DNA of 64,000 nt, from assembly GCA_009838525.1 (NCBI GenBank), contig VXRJ01000019.1, positions 73,932 to 137,931 on the forward strand, given 5' to 3'. Shown piece after piece: positions 5,275-20,104 of this stretch (its first letter is position 1; each line of letters begins with the position of its first letter). Below the pieces are notes generated by a model. That model was not told the origin of the DNA and made no database searches. It saw nothing but the letters and a program-made list of their open reading frames with translations. Both the position numbers and the translations under genes were made by a program. This DNA is from Acidobacteriota bacterium. GTDB taxonomy: Bacteria > Acidobacteriota > Vicinamibacteria > Vicinamibacterales > UBA8438.

Positions 5275-7740
5275 CTATTCTGCCACGGCGGCGGGCCGGG
5301 GCAATGCGGTTCGCATCCGGAACGGGAGGCTCCTGACGATTTCGGTGACGATCGCCGAGAAACGGTAGTCCTCCGCCGCGGCCGCGCGGGTGATCGCCCG
5401 GACCGCCGGGGCATCGTAGTACTCCACGCCGCGGCCCAGCGCATAGGTCAGCAGTTTCTCCACGAGCGTGCCGACGAACCGGTCCGGCCGTCGCAGCAGC
5501 GCATCGCGCAATCCGGCGGCGCCGTCGAAAGTCGTTCCGTCCGGCAACTCGCCGGTCGCATCGATCGGCTGATTCGTCACGGTGCGGGTGCGGAAGCGGC
5601 CGACCGCATCGAACTGCTCCAGGGCAAAGCCGGGTGGATCCATCAACCGGTGGCAACTGGCGCAAGCGGGCGCCGCGCGGTGAAGTTCGGTTGCCTCGCG
5701 CATCGACAGCGGCGCGCCGTCGCCCGCCGTCTCCTCGAGCGACGGGACGTCCGGCGGGGGCGCGGCAGGCGGCGTGCCGAGCAGATTCTCCAGTACCCAC
5801 TTGCCGCGCAGCACCGGAGACGTCCGGTTCGGATAGGCGGTGACCGACAGGATGCTCGCGTGCCCGAGAAGGCCGCGGCGCGCCTCGTTCGCCAGCGCGA
5901 CGCGGCGGAAGTCGCCGCCGTAAACGCCCGGGATGCCGTAGTGCCGCGCGAGCCGTTCGTTGACGAACGTGTAATCCGCGGTCAGCAGCTCGAGCACGCT
6001 CCGGTCCCCCAGGAAAACGTGCTCCACGAACAGCTCGGTCTCCCGCAACATCGCGTCGCGCAGTCCCTCGCCGACATCCGGGAAGAGGTCTTCGTCCGGC
6101 ACCACGGCCGGGATGTTCCGGAGGTAGAGCCACTGGCCAGCGAAGCTCGTAACGAGCGCCGTGGCGCGCTCGTCGGCCAGCATCCGGCGCGCCTGGCGCT
6201 CCAGTTCGTCCGGATTCCGGAGACGGCCGGCCTCCGCGGCGGCGAGCAACTCGTCGTCCGGCAGGCTGCTCCAGAGGAAGAACGACAGGCGCGATGCCAG
6301 TTCGAGGTCGCTCACCGCATACGACTCGCCCGGTTCCACCCCTGGCGGATCGCGCTCGACGCGCAGGACGAACTCCGGGCTGGCGAGCAGCCAGCGCAGC
6401 GCCATCTCGATTCCCGCCTCAAAACCGCCGTCGGCCGTCCCTTCATCGTAGAAACGGAGGAGGCTGTCGACCTCGTCGGGCGACACCGGACGGCGCCAGG
6501 CCTGTCGCGCAAGGCGGGCCATGATCGTGCGCGCGCATTCCCGCGCCACTTCCGCCGAGTCTCCCTCCGGTCGACAGGAAAAGACCCGCTGCCGGCTCGG
6601 CGTCGTATCCGCCGGGGGCGCGCCGGTCGCCGCGTAGGGCCCGGTGACGGTGACGCTGCCGAGGTACGGTTGAACGCGCGTATCGCCGCCGGTGATGCTC
6701 GTGTACGGCCGCAGGTAGGGCTGGCGCTGCGTTTCGGGATAGGCGTACGTCTGCCGGACGAAAGTTGCCTGCAGCACGTGGGGTCCGGCGCCGACCGGCA
6801 CCCGCACTTCCCAATCGGCGTCGGCGTTGCGCTGCCGCGCCCGCCAGTCGCGGTACGCGTCGCTGTCGCGCGGCGCGTCGGGTGGTGGCTCACCGACCGT
6901 GAACGTGCCAATCAACTCGCCGTCGAGGCTTAGCTCCAGCGCGTGCTCGAGGGTGAACGCGGCGAGCGCGTCGCCCGCATCGCGCGCGAGGCTGACCGCG
7001 ATTACGTACTCGCCATCCTCCGGGAAGTTGTGGCGGAACTGTCCGCCGCCGCGTGTACCGAAGGGCAGCCCCGGCATGCGGTCGTCCTGGGACAGGTCGC
7101 TCGGCAGGCGGAAGACCTCGGCGGTGGCCGACGGCGCCGGCCGTCCCACCGCGACGCGGCTGATCCTGCGGGCCGCGGCGAGGTAGCGCTCGAGGAGTGT
7201 CGGTGACAGCCCGAGCACACCCGCAATGTTGTCGAAGCCGTAACTGGCACCGTCGGCCGGCAACAGTTCGGCGACGTCGATAGGGAGATCCAGCAGATCG
7301 CGGACCGCGTGGTGGTACTCCGTCCGGTTCAAACGATGGAACGCTTCGGTCCGCCCCGGATTGGGGTCGGCGGCCGCGGCCCCATCGAGCTCGGTTTCCA
7401 GCCAGGCGACGAACCGATCGTACGTTGCCGCGTTCGGCCGGGGGCGCGGTGGCGGCGGCATGGCGCCGGCACGCAGCTTGCGCACCACGGTCTCCCAGAC
7501 GGCGGGCGCCTCACCGACCCGGGCGAGGTCCAGCCCCTCGAACGTCAGTCCGGCTGTCTCCAGCCGGTCGTTATGGCAAGTGAGGCAGTAGCGCTGGATC
7601 AGCGCGCGCTGCCATTCCGGGTCCGGCGGCTCGGGTGCCGCAGCCGGCTGCGCGCCGGCCGCCGGGACGAAGAGGAGGCAGACGGCGGACAGCAGGCCGA
7701 CGGCTCGGCAAACCGTTCGGGCAAACTGCGCGCGTCTCAT
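5275..7740 (-). CDS. DUF1587/DUF1592/DUF1588/DUF1585 planctomycete-type cytochrome-like protein
   Basis: 821 residues. The ATG at 7740 starts a Sec leader (to about AGAQP, residue 31). A heme-type CLTCH follows at residues 52-56 and a second CxxCH (CASCH) at 693-697, within the conserved block ending MDPPGFALEQFD. Between them are the DUF1587, DUF1595, DUF1592 and DUF1588 segments (for example LNRTEYHHAVRDLL and RLSFFLWSSLPDDELL); DUF1585 is at the C-terminus. The layout suggests a periplasmic c-type cytochrome-like oxidoreductase, but no reaction is known for the family. First gene of a three-gene operon with DUF1552 and ankyrin genes. An upstream ATG at 7773 would add 11 residues ahead of the leader and is less likely. 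Confidence 0.88.
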   Translation of the reverse strand: MRRAQFARTVCRAVGLLSAVCLLFVPAAGAQPAAAPEPPDPEWQRALIQRYCLTCHNDRLETAGLTFEGLDLARVGEAPAVWETVVRKLRAGAMPPPPRPRPNAATYDRFVAWLETELDGAAAADPNPGRTEAFHRLNRTEYHHAVRDLLDLPIDVAELLPADGASYGFDNIAGVLGLSPTLLERYLAAARRISRVAVGRPAPSATAEVFRLPSDLSQDDRMPGLPFGTRGGGQFRHNFPEDGEYVIAVSLARDAGDALAAFTLEHALELSLDGELIGTFTVGEPPPDAPRDSDAYRDWRARQRNADADWEVRVPVGAGPHVLQATFVRQTYAYPETQRQPYLRPYTSITGGDTRVQPYLGSVTVTGPYAATGAPPADTTPSRQRVFSCRPEGDSAEVARECARTIMARLARQAWRRPVSPDEVDSLLRFYDEGTADGGFEAGIEMALRWLLASPEFVLRVERDPPGVEPGESYAVSDLELASRLSFFLWSSLPDDELLAAAEAGRLRNPDELERQARRMLADERATALVTSFAGQWLYLRNIPAVVPDEDLFPDVGEGLRDAMLRETELFVEHVFLGDRSVLELLTADYTFVNERLARHYGIPGVYGGDFRRVALANEARRGLLGHASILSVTAYPNRTSPVLRGKWVLENLLGTPPAAPPPDVPSLEETAGDGAPLSMREATELHRAAPACASCHRLMDPPGFALEQFDAVGRFRTRTVTNQPIDATGELPDGTTFDGAAGLRDALLRRPDRFVGTLVEKLLTYALGRGVEYYDAPAVRAITRAAAAEDYRFSAIVTEIVRSLPFRMRTALPRPAAVAE

Positions 7741-10732: not shown

Positions 10733-11665
10733 TCAGTTGCGGAAAACGTCCGACTCCTCCACCACGACCTGGAACCTCCGGAACTCCGAATACTCGGCGG
10801 TTCCGGTCACCCGGGAGCCGGACTGGCGGTTTGCATAGCGCTCGCGCATCTCGACCGGCACCGGATGCCCAATCGTCTCGTCCATCGCGTAACGGACGAC
10901 GATGAGCGACTCGAGGTTCGGGTCATCGAACGACAGCTCCGTGACCAGCACCCGACCGGTGGCGGCCTCGATAAAGTAACGCCCCCGGGACGGCACGTTG
11001 CCCCCGCGGCGTTGCTGAATCACCGTAGTGGGCCAGGTCTCGCGATAGGCCACCACCCAGACGTCGCCGGCATCGTCAGGCAGGTCGACCCCGAGTTCGG
11101 GATCCTCGCCATCCGACAGCCGCTCGAAGTCAAAGCGGGTCTTGAAGGACGAATGCAGAAAGAGCAGCGCCAGCGTCGGCGTGTTCGTATTGCGCTCGAT
11201 GTCGCCGACGTTGTAGCGGGAACTGTCGGTCAGTATCCCCTGTATTCGATCGCGCACCGTCGCCGACGGATCGAGGAAAAGTCCTCTCAGGCGCTCGGCG
11301 CGATCCTGCACCGTACTGCCATCCACCTCGAATACGTCCCGAAAGCCGAAGTGCCGGTAGGACCCCTCGGGCCGCACGAGGAGATAATCCGACCGGAGGG
11401 TGACCCGATCGAAGCCGGCCCGGCCGCCGAACCCGGCGGATGCCGGCATCGTGGCGCTCTGCTCGTAGCGCTCCTCCATGACGACGTTGGTCAGCCGTTC
11501 ATGGAGGTCGTCGACGTACTCGGTCGCCCGTCCCAGCACGGCGCCCAGAGACTCGGCCTGCGCGCCCGACAGGCCCGGGGCCACCAGAGGCGACACAACG
11601 GCGACGACCGAGGCGCACAACGCCGCGCGAACGCACGCCCGATGCGGACGCCGCCCGTTGCCCAT
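10733..11665 (-). CDS. Exported protein of unknown function
   Basis: 310 residues with a Sec leader ending near LSGAQA. I do not recognise a named domain. The mature part opens with an amphipathic helix (TEYVDDLHERLTNVVMEERYEQ), then alternating strands with many aromatic and Arg residues (LVRPEGSYRHFGFRDVFEVDG, RGRYFIEAATGRVLVTELSFDD). Similar proteins are frequent in Acidobacteriota genomes as lone exported proteins of about 300 residues, often rich in strands; that is recollection, not a search. It is divergent from the PQQ dehydrogenase at 11757 and precedes the propeller lipoprotein. Confidence 0.7.
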   Translation of the reverse strand: MGNGRRPHRACVRAALCASVVAVVSPLVAPGLSGAQAESLGAVLGRATEYVDDLHERLTNVVMEERYEQSATMPASAGFGGRAGFDRVTLRSDYLLVRPEGSYRHFGFRDVFEVDGSTVQDRAERLRGLFLDPSATVRDRIQGILTDSSRYNVGDIERNTNTPTLALLFLHSSFKTRFDFERLSDGEDPELGVDLPDDAGDVWVVAYRETWPTTVIQQRRGGNVPSRGRYFIEAATGRVLVTELSFDDPNLESLIVVRYAMDETIGHPVPVEMRERYANRQSGSRVTGTAEYSEFRRFQVVVEESDVFRN

Positions 11666-11756
11666 GCCGGCAGTCTACTACTCCGGCGCACATGCGGGTA
11701 GAATCCGGGGATCCGGCCAATCGCCCCCGGCGCGGACCCCGGGAAGGGAGTGCACC

Positions 11757-13529
11757 ATGACCCGACAGCCCTTCGTTCTACGATGCGCGTCAGCCCTCTT
11801 CCTCACGCTGATGCTGGCCGCCCTCGGGCCGGGCGGCAACTCCGCCACCGCGCAGACGGGCGACGGATTTGTTCCGGTAACCGACGCGATGCTGCAGGAT
11901 CCGGCTCCCGGCGACTGGCTCATGTGGCGCCGAACCCTCGACGGGTGGGGCTACAGCCCGCTGGATCAGATCAACCGGGACAACGTCGGCGAGCTGCGGA
12001 TGGTATGGGCCCGCGGCCTTGCCCAGGGGGCCCAGCAAGGCACGCCGCTTGCCTATGGCGGCACGCTGTTCATGCCGAACCCCAACGACATCATCCAGGC
12101 GATAGACGCAGTGACCGGCGATCTCCTGTGGGAGTACATCCGGGTGATTCCCGACGACATCAACGAGTACGTCGGCGGCCTGATCAGCGTGAACCGGAAC
12201 GTGGCGATCCACGGCAACCGGATCATCCACACCGCCAACGACGGATACGTCCTGGCCCTCGACGCGTCTACCGGTCAACTCGTCTGGGAAACGGAGATCT
12301 TCGACTACACCGAGAACCCGGTGCGGCACTCCTCGGGTCCGATCGTCGCCAACGGCAAGGTGATCTCGGGACGTAGCTGCCGTCCGCGGTTCGGGCCGGA
12401 GGCGTGCGCCATCATCGCGCATGACGCCGAGACCGGCGAGGAGCTATGGCGCCGTCCCCTCATCCCGGCGCCGGGCGAGCCGGGCGATGAGAGCTGGGGA
12501 GGTGTTCCCTACGAGGACCGGGCCCACGTCGGCTCGTGGATGGTCCCGAGTTTCGACCCGGAGCTGAATCTGATCTATGTCGGCACCTCGGTCACGTCGC
12601 CCGCACCGAAGTTCCTTCAGGGCGGCGCCGACCTGAAGCACCTGTACCACAACTCCACGCTTGCGCTCGACGCCGACACCGGCGAGATCGAGTGGTACTA
12701 CCAGCACCTCAATGACAGTTGGGACCTCGACCATCCGTTCGAGCGGATCCTGGTCGACACGACCGTGGCGCCGGACGCCGGTGCGGTGGATTGGATCAAC
12801 CCGCGCATCCAGCCGGGCGAAGTGCGCAGGGTGCTGACCGGCATCCCGGGCAAGACCGGCATCGTCTACACGCTCGACCGCGAAACGGGCGAGTTCCTCT
12901 GGGCCACCGGCACCACGACGCAGAACGTCATCAGCGACATCGACGGGACGACCGGCCAGGTTACCGAGAACGCGGAGCTGGTCTTCAGCGCGCTCGGCCA
13001 GGAGATGTTCACCTGCCCCACCTGGAACGGCGGGAAGGACTGGGAGGCGGGGGCCTATTCGCCGCTGACCAACATGATGTACATGCCGCTCCGCAACGCC
13101 TGCGCGAGGATGCTCGCGACCGACGCGCCCGGCACGTCGCACTATGCCCTGGCCGTGCGCAACCAGATCGCGCCGGGCACCGATCAGGTGGGCACGGTCT
13201 TCGCCATCTCCGCCGAGACGGGGGAAACCGCGTGGGTGCACGAGCAGCGTGCGGCGACGATGTCGCTCGTCGCCACCGGCGGCGGCCTGGTCTTCGGGGG
13301 CGATAACAACGGCCGCTTCCACGCGTTCGATCAGGAATCCGGCGAGGTGCTCTGGGAGATCAACCTGGGCTCCGCGGTGACCGGCTTTCCGATCAGCTAC
13401 GCGGTAGACGGCCGGCAGTACATCGCGGTCGGCACCGGCACTGCGAGCACCGCGTCCCTGTTCGGCCGGCTGACACCGGAAATCCGTCCGAGCACCACCA
13501 ACAACCTGTTCGTGTTCGCGCTGCCTTGA
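11757..13529 (+). CDS. PQQ-dependent dehydrogenase, periplasmic (alcohol dehydrogenase-like)
   Basis: 590 residues. The ATG at 11757 has AAGGGAG upstream and starts a Sec leader (cut near SATAQ). The mature part is an eight-bladed quinoprotein propeller with repeated W-motifs: DAVTGDLLWEY, DASTGQLVWE, DAETGEELW, DADTGEIEWYYQ and SAETGETAW. Conserved PQQ-pocket blocks RSCRPRFGPEACAI and CPTWNGGKDWEAGAYSP are present. No cytochrome c domain is attached, so electrons must pass to a separate carrier. The substrate is likely an alcohol or aldehyde, but cannot be assigned. A weak -10 (TAGAAT, 11699-11704) lies in the gap to the divergent gene. No PQQ biosynthesis gene is in the window. Confidence 0.88.
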   Translation: MTRQPFVLRCASALFLTLMLAALGPGGNSATAQTGDGFVPVTDAMLQDPAPGDWLMWRRTLDGWGYSPLDQINRDNVGELRMVWARGLAQGAQQGTPLAYGGTLFMPNPNDIIQAIDAVTGDLLWEYIRVIPDDINEYVGGLISVNRNVAIHGNRIIHTANDGYVLALDASTGQLVWETEIFDYTENPVRHSSGPIVANGKVISGRSCRPRFGPEACAIIAHDAETGEELWRRPLIPAPGEPGDESWGGVPYEDRAHVGSWMVPSFDPELNLIYVGTSVTSPAPKFLQGGADLKHLYHNSTLALDADTGEIEWYYQHLNDSWDLDHPFERILVDTTVAPDAGAVDWINPRIQPGEVRRVLTGIPGKTGIVYTLDRETGEFLWATGTTTQNVISDIDGTTGQVTENAELVFSALGQEMFTCPTWNGGKDWEAGAYSPLTNMMYMPLRNACARMLATDAPGTSHYALAVRNQIAPGTDQVGTVFAISAETGETAWVHEQRAATMSLVATGGGLVFGGDNNGRFHAFDQESGEVLWEINLGSAVTGFPISYAVDGRQYIAVGTGTASTASLFGRLTPEIRPSTTNNLFVFALP

Positions 13530-13637: not shown

Positions 13638-13732
13638 TACAAGGTTCGGCGCGGATCGGCGGCGACGTCGGCGTCCGCGGCGTTGTGAGGCAGTTCAGTC
13701 GCATCCCCCGGGCACGGAGAAACCTGTCAATC

Positions 13733-14137
13733 ATGAACAGCAAGTACACCCCGCTCGAATCCCACCTGCGTGATTCCGGACATGCGCGCGTGCCCATGAC
13801 TTTCGGCGAAATCGAACAGGTCATCGGCGCCGGGTTGCCACCCGCCGCCCGCAGGCACCGTGCGTTGTGGTCCAACAACCCCGGCAACTGGGTCATGACG
13901 AAGGCTTGGCTCGCAGCGGGATACGAGACGGAGAAAGTCAACATGGAGAAGCAGAGGCTGGTCTTTCGGAAGGTCGTAACGGCCACGCCGGCGCCAGAAG
14001 CCGGCGGCGAATCGTCCACGGCGGAACGTACAGGGTCGTTCGCAGACGTTCTTGGCTCCCTGAAGGACACCATCACGATATCGCCTGGCACGAATCTGAC
14101 GGACCCCATCGGCGAAGACTGGAACGCCGCGCGGTAG
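13733..14137 (+). CDS. DUF7662 protein, probable antitoxin
   Basis: 134 residues from the ATG at 13733. The N-terminal 70 residues match the DUF7662 pattern: KYTPLESHL, then MTFGEIEQVIGAGLPPAARRHRALWSNN, then a Trp-rich helix and a short strand (KVNMEKQRLVFRKV). The tail is Ser/Thr/Glu-rich and probably disordered, which suits an antitoxin that wraps a toxin. Seven bases separate its stop from the vapC GTG, and an operator-like promoter precedes it. The pairing with a PIN toxin supports an antitoxin role; DUF7662 itself has no settled function. A GTG at 13685 would lengthen the N-terminus by 16 residues. Confidence 0.7.
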   Translation: MNSKYTPLESHLRDSGHARVPMTFGEIEQVIGAGLPPAARRHRALWSNNPGNWVMTKAWLAAGYETEKVNMEKQRLVFRKVVTATPAPEAGGESSTAERTGSFADVLGSLKDTITISPGTNLTDPIGEDWNAAR

Positions 14138-14144
14138 CGTCCAA

Positions 14145-14558
14145 GTGACCGACTTCCTGCTCGATACGTGCGCCGTCATCTGGACGGCCCACAAGGACCC
14201 GTTGCGCGAACCGGGCGCGAGCCAATTGCAGGACGCGTACCGGCGCGGGGCACGCTTGTTCGTCTCCCCCATCACCGCATGGGAAATCGGGATGCTCGTG
14301 GCGAAGGGGAAGATCGCGCTTGCGCTCGATCCCGACCTCTGGTTCCAGCGCTTCTGCGAGTTGCCCTCCGTGACGCTGGCAGCGATGCCGACGTCCGTGT
14401 TGGTCTCATCGACCAGGCTGCCGGGAACGCCGCCTCCCGATCCCGCGGACCGCATCCTCATCGCGACCGCCCGCACCTTCGGGCACGTGCTAGCCACGCG
14501 TGACGCCAGGATTCTGGAGTATGGCTCTCAAGGTCATGTGCGGGTTATTGAGTGCTGA
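14145..14558 (+). CDS. vapC: VapC-type PIN-domain ribonuclease toxin
   Basis: 137 residues, GTG start at 14145. The acidic residues that hold Mg2+ in PIN domains are all visible: Asp7 (FLLDTCAVIW), Glu47 (TAWEIGM), Asp102 (DPADRILIATA) and Asp120 (ATRDARI). The length is normal for VapC. The family cleaves RNA, often tRNA, when the antitoxin is lost. The partner is the DUF7662 gene just upstream, replacing the usual VapB. Translation is probably coupled, given the 7-bp gap. Confidence 0.9.
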   Translation: MTDFLLDTCAVIWTAHKDPLREPGASQLQDAYRRGARLFVSPITAWEIGMLVAKGKIALALDPDLWFQRFCELPSVTLAAMPTSVLVSSTRLPGTPPPDPADRILIATARTFGHVLATRDARILEYGSQGHVRVIEC

Positions 14559-14775: not shown

Positions 14776-15969
14776 ATGACACGCTGGACATTCGCAGCAG
14801 CGGCTCTCGCGTTGCTGGCGGCTCCGGCCGAGGCGGTCGCGCAGGAGGCCGCCCCGGTCCGCTCTGCGCACGAAGACCTGGAACCGGGCACCCAGACCGA
14901 CGACCTCGGCATCACGTTCGGCCTGCCCGCGAGTCATCCCGGGCGCCGCTACCCGGCGTCCCACGAGTTCCCGTCGGGACCGGAGGTCGGCCAGCGGCTT
15001 CCGGAGTTCTCGCTGCCGAATCAGCAGGGGCGCATGGTCGACTACCACGCGGACCGGGGCGATTCAAAGTCGATTGTCGTGTTCTACCGCTCGGCTGTGT
15101 GGTGACCGTACTGCCGCACGCAGCTGGTCGAGCTGCAGACGAACCTGGGGCTCTTCGAGGAGGCAGGCATTCGCGTCTACGGCGTGAGCTACGACAGTCC
15201 GGAGCAGCTCCGGGCGTTCGCCGACGAGCATGACGTGACGTACGAGCTCCTGTCCGACGTCGACTCGGCCGTGATTCGGGAGTTCGGCATCCTCAACACC
15301 CTGATCGCTCCCGAGGATCCGGAACAGGCCGCCGGCCGCAGCTTCTACGGCGTGCCGTTCCCCGGCGTCTACGTGACGGACGAGAACGGCGTGGTTACCG
15401 AGAAGTTCTTCCACCGGCACTACGCCAGCCGCGCCTCGGCGGGGACGATCCGCGACTCCGCCCTCGGCGAGATCCTCGCGCGCCACGAGGTTCCGGTCGT
15501 CGAGCTCGGTGCCGAACAGGTGAAGATCTCCGCGTTCCTGTCCGACCCCGCGATGCAGTTCGAGACCCAGTCGACGGTTCACGTGCGCTTCGAGCTCGCG
15601 GACGGACTCCACATGTACGGCCAGCCGCTGCCCGACGGCTACATCGCTTCCGAGGTGACGGTTCCCGACACCCCGGGGCTGCGCGTAGGGGCGATACGGT
15701 ACCCGCCGACGCACCCGAGGGAGTTCCCGCTGCTCGGAGTCACCCTCAACGTCTACGAAGGGGTGGTCGACGTCGCGATTCCCGTGACGCCGGACGCGGA
15801 AGTCTTCCACCGGTCGAACCCGGACCGGCCGGACGTCGTCGAGGTGCCGCTTTCTGTGCTGTACCAGGTCTGCAGCGAGACGATCTGCTACACCCCGCGG
15901 ACCGAGACGCTCTCTCTGACGGCGCCGTTCCAGCCTCTCGTGACCCCGGGCGCCCCGAGAGCGAGATAG
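14776..15969 (+). CDS. Probable selenoprotein: thioredoxin-fold redoxin fused to a DsbD-alpha-like domain
   Basis: Read through the in-frame TGA at 15103-15105, this is 397 residues. The ATG at 14776 has GGAG (14763-14766) upstream and opens a Sec leader (to about residue 23). Residues about 70-235 are an AhpC/TSA-type redoxin: VGQRLPEFSLPNQQGRMVDY, then VVFYRSAVW, the TGA codon (residue 110), PYC (Cys113), QLVELQ, and later GVPFPGVYVTDENG. Homologues have Cys at the TGA position, so the motif would be U-P-Y-C. Residues about 240-397 resemble the N-terminal domain of DsbD, with a redox pair CSETIC (Cys366/Cys371). A GGU-loop hairpin starts 14 bases after the TGA. The frame stays open and conserved for 288 codons after it. 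Predicted role: periplasmic thiol/disulfide or peroxide reduction. The alternative is a nonsense mutation; its exact placement at a redox cysteine argues against that. Confidence 0.87.
15120..15136 (+). promoter_or_regulatory. Bacterial SECIS-like hairpin
   Basis: Perfect 6-bp arms GCAGCT (15120-15125) and AGCTGC (15131-15136) enclose the loop GGTCG. The first loop G is 21 bases after the TGA, inside the 16-37 base window known for bacterial SECIS elements, whose apical loop typically carries an exposed G or GGU read by SelB. The hairpin lies within the coding sequence, as required in bacteria. Confidence 0.75.
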
Positions 15970-17517: not shown

Positions 17518-17994
17518 ATGATGCGGCGAGTCGCAGTGGGAATCGCGCTCACGACCCTCGCCGCGGCGCCGGCGTTTGCGCAGACCTCCGTTTCCGTAGC
17601 GGTGCGGCATGCGACGCGCGCCGTTGGCACGCACGATGTCCTGCCCGCGACGGCCCAAGGCGTGGTGATCGGCACGTCGACGCGGGTGATCGGGCGCCTG
17701 GGGGCGTGGGGATCGTTCACGAGCTGGCCGGAGCCGATCGGCCGGACTATCGCCTTCGGCGGGCGGTTCAACCTCGCGCGCGACGACTGGAAGCTGCGCC
17801 CGGCGGTCCTGCTGGGCACGTGGCGCAAGCCGGCACGCGGCGCCCCCTGGCAACTGATCTTCGGCGGGGGAGTCGGGTTCCGCATCCGGGGGCGATGGAG
17901 TGGCAGCGTCGCACTCGGCGTAATCACGATTCGTTCGACCGGTCTGGCCTATGCCGTGCCGCAGGCCGGCGTCGCGTACACACTGCTGCCGTAA
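17518..17994 (+). CDS. Small exported protein, possible outer-membrane beta-barrel
   Basis: 158 residues from the ATG at 17518, which has AGGAAGACAGG just upstream; it begins 11 bp after the decarboxylase stop, so it is probably co-transcribed. A leader ends near APAFAQ. The rest alternates Gly/aromatic strands (FGGRFNLARDDWKLRPAVLLGTW, QLIFGGGVGFRIRG) and ends in a strand of aromatic type without a terminal Phe. This resembles a small beta-barrel or outer-membrane-protein-like fold, but I recognise no family. Confidence 0.65.
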   Translation: MMRRVAVGIALTTLAAAPAFAQTSVSVAVRHATRAVGTHDVLPATAQGVVIGTSTRVIGRLGAWGSFTSWPEPIGRTIAFGGRFNLARDDWKLRPAVLLGTWRKPARGAPWQLIFGGGVGFRIRGRWSGSVALGVITIRSTGLAYAVPQAGVAYTLLP

Positions 17995-18102
17995 ACCGAA
18001 CGTGCGCTCCGTTGAGGTGCGCCGCCGACCACTGGCTCGGCGTATTCGGTTTGAGTCCCGTCGCGTCTGCCGGCAAAGCCGATGGCACTGCAGGTTCTCG
18101 TT

Positions 18103-18128
18103 TACAATTCCGGCCGACGCACCGGGAG
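18103..18128 (+). promoter_or_regulatory. -10 element and ribosome-binding site for the PQQ dehydrogenase
   Basis: TACAAT (18103-18108) and the ribosome-binding site GGGAG (18124-18128) precede the ATG at 18134 with a 5-base spacing. The leader transcript would be about 18-20 bases. Confidence 0.4.
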
Positions 18129-18133
18129 ATAAC

Positions 18134-20104
18134 ATGCCGATCACGCGACGGTTCGCCCTCATGCTCCTCATGGCCGCGATAACGGGCCTTGCGTCATCGG
18201 CTGACGCCCAGACTGCCGACGCGGACCCCGCAGCGGGCGAGTGGCGCGCGTTCGGGCATGACGCCGCCAACACCAAGTACTCGCCGCTCGATCAGATCCG
18301 ACCGGAGAACTTCCGTGATCTGGAAATCGCCTGGCGCTGGAAGTCGATCTCGACCGAAGTGGCGGCGGAACGTGAGGAGATCGACCCGGGCCCCTTCAAG
18401 ACCATCCCCCTGATGGTCGACGGACTCGTCTACGCCAGCACGGCGCTAGGCCAGGTGGTCGCCGTCGACGCGGGAACGGGAGAAATGGTCTGGTCTTACG
18501 ACCCGGAGACCTACAACCGTCTCGAGCGGCCCGCCAACATGGGCTGGCAACACCGCGGCGTCTCCTACTGGAAGGACGATCGGAGCGCTGACGCGCGAAT
18601 CTTCATCGCAACCCACGATCTGCTCCTGGTGGCGATGAATGCCCGCACCGGCGCCCTCTATCCCAACTTCGGCGCGGACGGCGCGGTGGACCTGAGCACC
18701 AGCCTCGGGCGCCCGGTAGATCGTTCACGCCTGACCCATTCGCAGCCCCTCGCCATCGTGGGAGACACCGTGGTCGTGGGCAGCATCGTGCAGGACACGT
18801 CGCTCACGCGCCGCGAGGCGGACCCGGGCCACGTGCGCGGTTTCGACACGCGGACCGGCGAGTTGAAATGGACGTTCCACACGATCCCGCAGGGAGAGGA
18901 GTTCGGCGCGGATACCTGGCACGACGAGTCGTGGCGCTACTCGGGCCACACCAACGTCTGGGGAACGATGGCGGTGGACGAGGAGCTGGGCTACGTCTAT
19001 CTGCCGACCGGCACTCCCACCAACGACTGGTACGGCGGGATGCGCCACGGGGACAATCTCTTCGCCGAGAGCATCATCTGCGTCGATGCGGAGACGGGTG
19101 AGCGCATCTGGCACTTTCAGGCGGTGCACCACGGGCTCTGGGACTACGACTTCCCCACCGCCGGACACCTCCTCGACATCACAGTCGATGGCCGCGACAT
19201 CAAGGCATACGTGCAGACCAGCAAGCAGGCGTTCACGTACGTCTTCGACCGGGTGACCGGCGAGCCGGTATGGCCCATCGAGGAGCGACCCGTTCCGGCG
19301 GGTGATGTCCCGGGCGAGTGGTACGCGCCGACGCAACCCTTCCCGACGAAACCTCCGCCGTTCGACCTGCAGGGGATCACGCTCGACGACCTGATCGACT
19401 TCACGCCGGAACTGCATGAGGAAGCCATCCGGCTCGCGGGGCGGATGCGGCTCGGACCCATCTTCACGCCGCCGCCGGTGCGGGACGAGCTGGGTCCGAT
19501 CGTGCAGTCGCCGGGTCCCGGGGGCGGCATCAACTGGCCCGGCGCGGCGGTCGATCCGGAAACCGGCCGGCTGTTCGTACCGTCGCAGACCCGCCTCCGC
19601 GCGGTTGAGCTGGTGGAGTACCCGCCCCCGGCAACCGTCGGCTACTTCACCGATCCGTGGGCCGTCAATGTACCGGGCCCGCGCGGCCTCCCGCTGGTCA
19701 AGCCTCCCTACAAACGGGTGTCAGCCTTCGATCTGAACAGCGGCGACCAACTCTGGATGAGCCCTCACGGCGACGGCCCGCGCAACCACCCGGCGCTGCG
19801 CCACCTCAACCTGCCGGCGCTTGGCGGCCACAGCGGCATGCACGGCGGAGGCCCGCTCGTGACGAAGACCCTGCTACTGGTCAACTCCGGCGCGCGCTAC
19901 GTCGAGGACGAAGTCGCCTCGGCCAGCGCAATTACCGCGTACCATAAGGACAACGGGGAGTACCTGGGCTCGTTCACGCTTCCCGCGGTTCCCTATGGCA
20001 ATCCCATCACCTATCTCCACGACGGCAAGCAGTACATCGTCGTCGCCGTCGGCAGCGGCAGCACCACCGCTACCCCGGAACTAATCGCCCTGGCGTTGCC
20101 GTGA
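18134..20104 (+). CDS. PQQ-dependent dehydrogenase, glucose dehydrogenase-like, soluble periplasmic
   Basis: 656 residues from the ATG at 18134, which has a good ribosome-binding site; the frame is open further upstream but without a leader. Sec leader to about SADAQ. The body is an eight-bladed quinoprotein propeller (SPLDQIRPENFRDLEIAWRW, DAGTGEMVWSY, DTRTGELKWTF, DAETGERIWHF) with the HHGLWDYDFPTAGHLLD block of the GDH/Quinate-shikimate group. Unlike E. coli Gcd there are no N-terminal membrane helices, so it is a free periplasmic form. Substrate unknown (sugar, sugar acid or alcohol). Its TGA overlaps the bshC GTG. Confidence 0.87.
   Translation: MPITRRFALMLLMAAITGLASSADAQTADADPAAGEWRAFGHDAANTKYSPLDQIRPENFRDLEIAWRWKSISTEVAAEREEIDPGPFKTIPLMVDGLVYASTALGQVVAVDAGTGEMVWSYDPETYNRLERPANMGWQHRGVSYWKDDRSADARIFIATHDLLLVAMNARTGALYPNFGADGAVDLSTSLGRPVDRSRLTHSQPLAIVGDTVVVGSIVQDTSLTRREADPGHVRGFDTRTGELKWTFHTIPQGEEFGADTWHDESWRYSGHTNVWGTMAVDEELGYVYLPTGTPTNDWYGGMRHGDNLFAESIICVDAETGERIWHFQAVHHGLWDYDFPTAGHLLDITVDGRDIKAYVQTSKQAFTYVFDRVTGEPVWPIEERPVPAGDVPGEWYAPTQPFPTKPPPFDLQGITLDDLIDFTPELHEEAIRLAGRMRLGPIFTPPPVRDELGPIVQSPGPGGGINWPGAAVDPETGRLFVPSQTRLRAVELVEYPPPATVGYFTDPWAVNVPGPRGLPLVKPPYKRVSAFDLNSGDQLWMSPHGDGPRNHPALRHLNLPALGGHSGMHGGGPLVTKTLLLVNSGARYVEDEVASASAITAYHKDNGEYLGSFTLPAVPYGNPITYLHDGKQYIVVAVGSGSTTATPELIALALP

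Follow-up and report, generated by a model that had tools for sequence, protein, structure and literature searches.

The bacterial selenoproteins closest to the one reported here are the Prx-like thiol:disulfide oxidoreductases (PF00578, UxxC) and the 'Redoxin family protein'/Prx-like 3 group (PF08534, UxxC), listed in Table 1 of PMC13188914 and Table 2 of PMC2398784. In these proteins, selenocysteine (Sec) is the first residue of a UxxC motif within an AhpC/TSA or redoxin domain, Cys-containing homologues exist, and the SECIS element follows right after the UGA. The locus analysed here shares all of these features, but its redoxin domain is fused to a domain with an invariant CxxxxC motif, resembling the N-terminal domain of DsbD (nDsbD), and the protein is probably exported. 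TsoB, a rhodanese/DsbD fusion-like selenoprotein (NF045694, PMC13188914), is likewise a DsbD-related fusion; it is, however, rhodanese-like with a UxxxxU motif, whereas the present protein is a redoxin with UxxC. The redoxin–nDsbD fusion is absent from the selenoprotein lists of PMC13188914 and PMC2398784, and a literature search, with most subscription papers outside its reach, returned no selenoprotein paper on a redoxin–DsbD_N fusion. UxxC redoxin selenoproteins are therefore already known, and the new part, for which no report was found, is the fusion to an nDsbD-like domain.

A redoxin reading frame with one in-frame TGA

The window, i.e. the whole 64,000-nt stretch of DNA that was analysed (C19:73932-137931), belongs to a 4.29 Mb genome in 38 contigs (96.9% complete) from an uncultured bacterium. 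Kinship with named orthologues at ~86% identity, which are assigned to uncultured Vicinamibacterales or Vicinamibacteria of the Acidobacteriota, would place this genome in the Vicinamibacterales. On the forward strand of the window, a frame extends from an ATG at 14776 to a TAG at 15967-15969, its sole interruption being a TGA at 15103-15105. The first-pass annotation had described 109 codons, this TGA and 288 further codons; the upstream portion and the TGA stand as described, while the downstream portion in fact consists of 287 sense codons plus the TAG, giving a protein of 397 residues with the TGA at codon 110. That the TGA lies in the W-TGA-PYC motif of a redoxin, also noted at that time, is borne out by the AhpC/TSA match, which spans the codon (residues 71-209) and identifies the sequence on either side of it as one and the same protein. 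Cys113, the second residue of the UxxC motif, is encoded at 15112-15114 (+ strand) and is invariant in alignment A1. A scan for promoters and terminators found nothing. From sequence comparison, we conclude that 14776-15969 is almost certainly a selenoprotein gene whose UGA would be read as Sec.

The frame could in principle yield two products, namely a 109-residue protein ending at the UGA and a downstream protein from an internal start such as the GTG at 15184, from which a mechanical open reading frame does exist. We give this reading next to no credence: the UGA falls inside a single Pfam domain and a single fold, neither fragment would hold a working active site, and orthologues show conserved codons in one and the same frame before as well as after the UGA.

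Searching 60 relatives and the genome_contigs collection recovered 35 distinct orthologues, and every one of them (35/35) carries TGA at codon 110. They come from Vicinamibacteria and Thermoanaerobaculia and reach down to ~56-60% identity, the TGA being kept in the Thermoanaerobaculia orthologues at ~60%. Eight more distant homologues (L043, L046, L172, L173 and L187-L190) have Cys there instead, the codon aligned with the TGA being TGC or TGT. Across all homologues this codon was TGA or Cys and nothing else, the pair that the first reading of the sequence had proposed to look for. At L086, the tblastn match to the orthologue splits in two near position 6950, which suggests a frameshift in that draft genome.

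These data also bear on a trivial origin of the stop codon, i.e. a pseudogene or sequencing error in which TGA arose from TGC or TGT. Although a one-base change would suffice, the identical TGA recurs in independent assemblies, which excludes a sequencing error; the first-pass annotation had argued that a random nonsense mutation would rarely hit this codon. Moreover, the sequence after the TGA is under purifying selection (dN/dS ~0.17-0.21 against the closer orthologues), and a covarying hairpin follows the codon (see below). The comparative data thus already refute such an origin, and its chances are vanishingly small. Instead, the locus has the marks of a selenoprotein gene: an in-frame UGA with conserved homologous sequence beyond it, a Sec/Cys pair provided by the eight Cys homologues, and a genome that encodes the Sec machinery (selA, selB, selC and selD).

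A SECIS-type hairpin and the selenocysteine machinery

In the current model, a bacterial SECIS element has a stem of 4-16 bp and a loop of 3-9 nt with a G in the first two loop positions, the loop lying 16-37 nt from the UGA (PMC13188914). The sequence GCAGCU[GGUCG]AGCUGC at 15120-15136 (+ strand) conforms to this description, with a 6 bp stem (15120-15125 paired with 15131-15136) that starts 17 nt past the first base of the UGA and a 5-nt loop, GGUCG (15126-15130), that begins 20 nt after the UGA. The hairpin had escaped the first-pass annotation, and its compensatory changes add to the support for the selenoprotein interpretation made there, as do the Sec machinery and the restriction of the codon to TGA or Cys. 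The SECIS of E. coli fdhF has a short stem and a G-U in the apical loop; the element found here likewise combines a short stem, a G-U in its loop and the usual distance from the UGA, but differs in sequence.

The hairpin is tightly linked to the TGA form of the gene. In the wider family, all six pairs are present in 89/89 unambiguous TGA sequences (a further one carries an N within its stem), and five of six further TGA loci read by eye also have all six, the diverged L199 showing one stem mismatch. The loop opens with S-G-U, its positions 2 and 3 being G and U in every TGA sequence seen. Among the Cys homologues, in contrast, only 1/8 keeps the six pairs and in 7/8 the hairpin is broken (Fisher p = 6e-10 by sequence count, a value overstated by the relatedness of the sequences). 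In the orthologues, synonymous sites exceed their expected conservation most strongly in the eight codons that hold this hairpin, +3 to +10 from the TGA: of 354 windows of that size, theirs ranks first (0.94 identical, against an expectation of 0.49).

Covariation, which covers the upper stem only, was scored over 40 distinct sequences: 240/240 cells are paired with no broken pair, at two stem pairs both partners have changed (GC to CG or UA, and GC to AU), and the score was reached by 0/500 shuffles, slid controls failing as well. At columns 21/31 the two substitutions are both synonymous (CAG to CAA and CTG to TTG), and this doubly synonymous pair change argues that selection acts on the RNA. 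At columns 18/34, a third codon position is paired with a change that alters residue 121. In silico folding of the 48 nt from the UGA alone preferred another pairing, while the hairpin formed when six upstream bases were added or when folded as a 21-nt core. Since the 48-54 nt stretch, folded as a single sequence, had an unremarkable energy (z = -0.8 and -0.2), we rely on the comparative evidence. Rfam contained no named RNA family matching the window or the surroundings of the TGA, which is uninformative because bacterial SECIS elements vary.

The genes needed for Sec insertion, selA, selB, selD and that of tRNA-Sec, had been proposed as a check on the selenoprotein reading, and all four are present in the source genome. 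The tRNA-Sec scores 60.6 bits, above the Rfam cut-off, and is identified by ARAGORN as tRNA-SeC (anticodon tca); SelA scores 540.7 bits; and SelB, with 304 bits including its pieces, is encoded on the same contig, ~20 kb past the end of the window. SelD shares a long frame of ~850 aa with an Ndh-like FAD domain (L024, C27:129198-130112), a fusion known from marine metagenomes (PMC2398784). A PrxQ-like gene without a TGA adjoins this Ndh–SelD gene.

In a tally compiled by hand from the search results, SelA was above its cut-off in 44/51 genomes with the TGA form versus 2/7 with the Cys form only (p = 0.003, kinship not corrected), and was correspondingly absent more often in the latter (5/7 versus 7/51). 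One genome (G044) has the TGA form, the Cys form and SelA. Two others (G350 and G373), both fairly complete drafts, carry the TGA form with no SelA above the cut-off; draft genomes can miss SelA.

The gene being known from DNA alone, the UGA might be read as something other than Sec, be it through a reassigned code, through misreading as Trp or Cys, or through programmed readthrough that could give another residue. Reassignment was rejected: TGA is an ordinary stop in 6/10 neighbouring reading frames examined, so the genome is not TGA-reassigned. The complete Sec machinery, Cys as the only alternative residue in homologues and a hairpin that fits the SECIS model speak against the remaining variants as well, leaving a non-Sec reading as a whole very improbable. 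With the UGA read as Sec, the hairpin 3' of the codon would recruit SelB with Sec-tRNA-Sec, Sec would be inserted at residue 110, and translation would run on to residue 397.

Two fused redox domains and a predicted electron route

The predicted protein starts with a hydrophobic segment (MTRWTFAAAALALLAAPAEAVAQ; 14776-14844, + strand), which by inspection is a likely signal peptide and which the structural model renders as a low-confidence helix at residues 4-14. Together with the link to DsbD discussed below, this N terminus, judged by eye, makes export to the periplasm likely. An AhpC/TSA peroxiredoxin-like domain (residues 71-209; 14986-15402, + strand) follows, which matches PF00578 at 101.4 bits (cut-off 26, E = 4e-29) and PF08534 (Redoxin) at 51.6 bits (cut-off 26.6), with U110-P-Y-C113 as the UxxC motif. 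The selenoprotein stays below the cut-off of every NCBIfam model; the SelL-related redox proteins (NF040769), which have the redoxin fold in common with it, match weakly over residues 74-175 (39.8 bits, cut-off 120), so that by this score it falls outside their family. An AlphaFold2 model built with 48 family members (mean pLDDT 85.9) has both domains well formed, and the N-terminal one is closest in fold to Bcp/PrxQ and AhpE (Z 17-18.6), with ResA also among the matches.

The C-terminal 130 residues, the likely signal peptide and the paralogous set described below are absent from the first-pass annotation. The C-terminal portion matches PF11412 (DsbD_N) at residues 263-381 (15562-15918, + strand; 49.4 bits, cut-off 25, E = 6e-13), an assignment with which its fold and its redox Cys pair agree. 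Modelled alone (pLDDT 90.6), this domain gave as top fold matches E. coli nDsbD (3pfu, E = 1.4e-5; 5nhi) and the N-terminal domain of ScsB (6c29). Its sequence profile had no match among PDB sequences, so that the kinship with nDsbD came from fold comparison; the absence of nDsbD from the VIA-align fold list is uninformative, because peroxiredoxins fill that list. Like nDsbD and the ScsB domain, which are periplasmic, it has an immunoglobulin-type fold with paired Cys in a YQ-x-C...C-Y context (Cys366 and Cys371 in YQ-x-CSETIC-Y; 15871-15888, + strand; both invariant in alignments A1 and A3). It differs from E. coli nDsbD in having four rather than five residues between the Cys (C103/C109 in E. 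coli), and in being attached to a redox enzyme, whereas nDsbD in DsbD is attached to the membrane domain. Four positions are invariant across the 48 aligned members: 110 (Sec or Cys) and the three Cys at 113, 366 and 371.

In E. coli, nDsbD receives its electrons from cDsbD and hands them on to DsbC, CcmG and DsbG (PMC7347389). By analogy, the nDsbD-like domain here may accept electrons from cDsbD and reduce a thioredoxin-fold partner (PMC7347389). The source genome does encode a DsbD of 607 residues, which has the membrane domain, ends in a Trx domain and matches nDsbD weakly. We thus infer the following route, which we regard as probable with considerable reservation: full-length DsbD would reduce the fused nDsbD-like domain via Cys366/Cys371, and this domain would in turn re-reduce the Se-S bond of the catalytic centre, formed by Sec110 and Cys113 in the peroxiredoxin-like thioredoxin fold, either within a chain or between chains. 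As no operon is conserved, the DsbD link is drawn from domain homology. On balance, the protein would best be described as a periplasmic, self-fed selenothiol oxidoreductase, with protein disulfides or sulfenic acids as its most likely substrates.

The same selenoprotein might instead reduce peroxide or peroxynitrite, with Sec110 as the peroxidatic and Cys113 as the resolving residue and the nDsbD-like domain reloading the pair. In favour of this, Pfam ranks AhpC/TSA first, the nearest folds are those of the peroxiredoxins Bcp/PrxQ/AhpE, Sec is generally favoured in peroxidases, and envelope peroxiredoxins fed by DsbD/ScsB-type transporters are known. The peroxiredoxin signature Px3(T/S)xxC, however, is absent, residue -3 being Ala107 (an Ala kept by at least 90% of the 48 members), which is why we favour a disulfide reductase over a peroxidase. 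In addition, W-U/C-P-x-C resembles the motif of TlpA/ResA-type disulfide reductases, ResA being among the fold matches, and nothing in the gene neighbourhood points to oxidative stress. A peroxidase seems a real possibility, albeit one with somewhat less than an even chance.

Family breadth, paralogues and gene neighbourhood

Taken together, these data lean slightly towards an undescribed family, in which a Sec-containing thioredoxin-fold enzyme with its own nDsbD input is wired directly to the DsbD transmembrane relay in the periplasm. Such a family would have expanded to several Sec paralogues in a genome, in Vicinamibacteria as well as Thermoanaerobaculia, and would share one SECIS hairpin kept by selection on the RNA. 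The same gene, stop codon included, recurs across the whole of a large group of uncultured Acidobacteriota. The case suggests that selenium use is widespread in the lineage and reaches the periplasm. Standard annotation would cut such genes in two, so that draft genomes of Acidobacteriota probably give a false picture of their redox repertoire. The fusion presents a directly testable electron route, from DsbD through the nDsbD-like domain to Sec, and the aligned TGA and Cys forms, with hairpins kept or lost, are good material on how Sec insertion is kept or given up.

The source genome contains two paralogues (L010, C33:16540-17556; L011, C32:68003-69019) with the same two-domain build and W-TGA-PYC motif. 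Both share the hairpin, here with a CGUGG loop, and their relatives across the phylum also carry W-TGA-P-x-C. A search of the plasmid collection returned only distant redoxins.

Further redoxins with an in-frame TGA were observed. In the source genome, a Bcp/PrxQ-like gene (L147, C35:156631-156993) has TGA at the peroxidatic position (FTGG-TGA-TAEC) and is likely a Prx (TxxU) selenoprotein, and a redoxin (L155, C18:523633-523938) with TGA in HRHLR-TGA-LACRRHL (UxxC) is possibly another. Three redoxins of relatives (L130, L132 and L137 in G004, G053 and G050, respectively) share F-Y/H-RG-x-W-TGA-P-x-C and are putative UxxC selenoproteins outside the fusion family.

The genes surrounding the selenoprotein gene in the window, encoding PQQ beta-propeller, DUF7662, PIN-domain and PLP decarboxylase proteins, are not common to orthologous loci, PQQ-type genes near a few excepted; the neighbours not being conserved, no operon-based function can be assigned. 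PQQ-type beta-propeller genes flank the selenoprotein gene at 11478-13529 and 17951-20104, and such genes also lie near it in a few relatives (L058, L061, L065 and L067), which may reflect their abundance only. At 13685-14558, a gene for a DUF7662 protein is followed by one for a PIN-domain protein, possibly a toxin–antitoxin-like pair.
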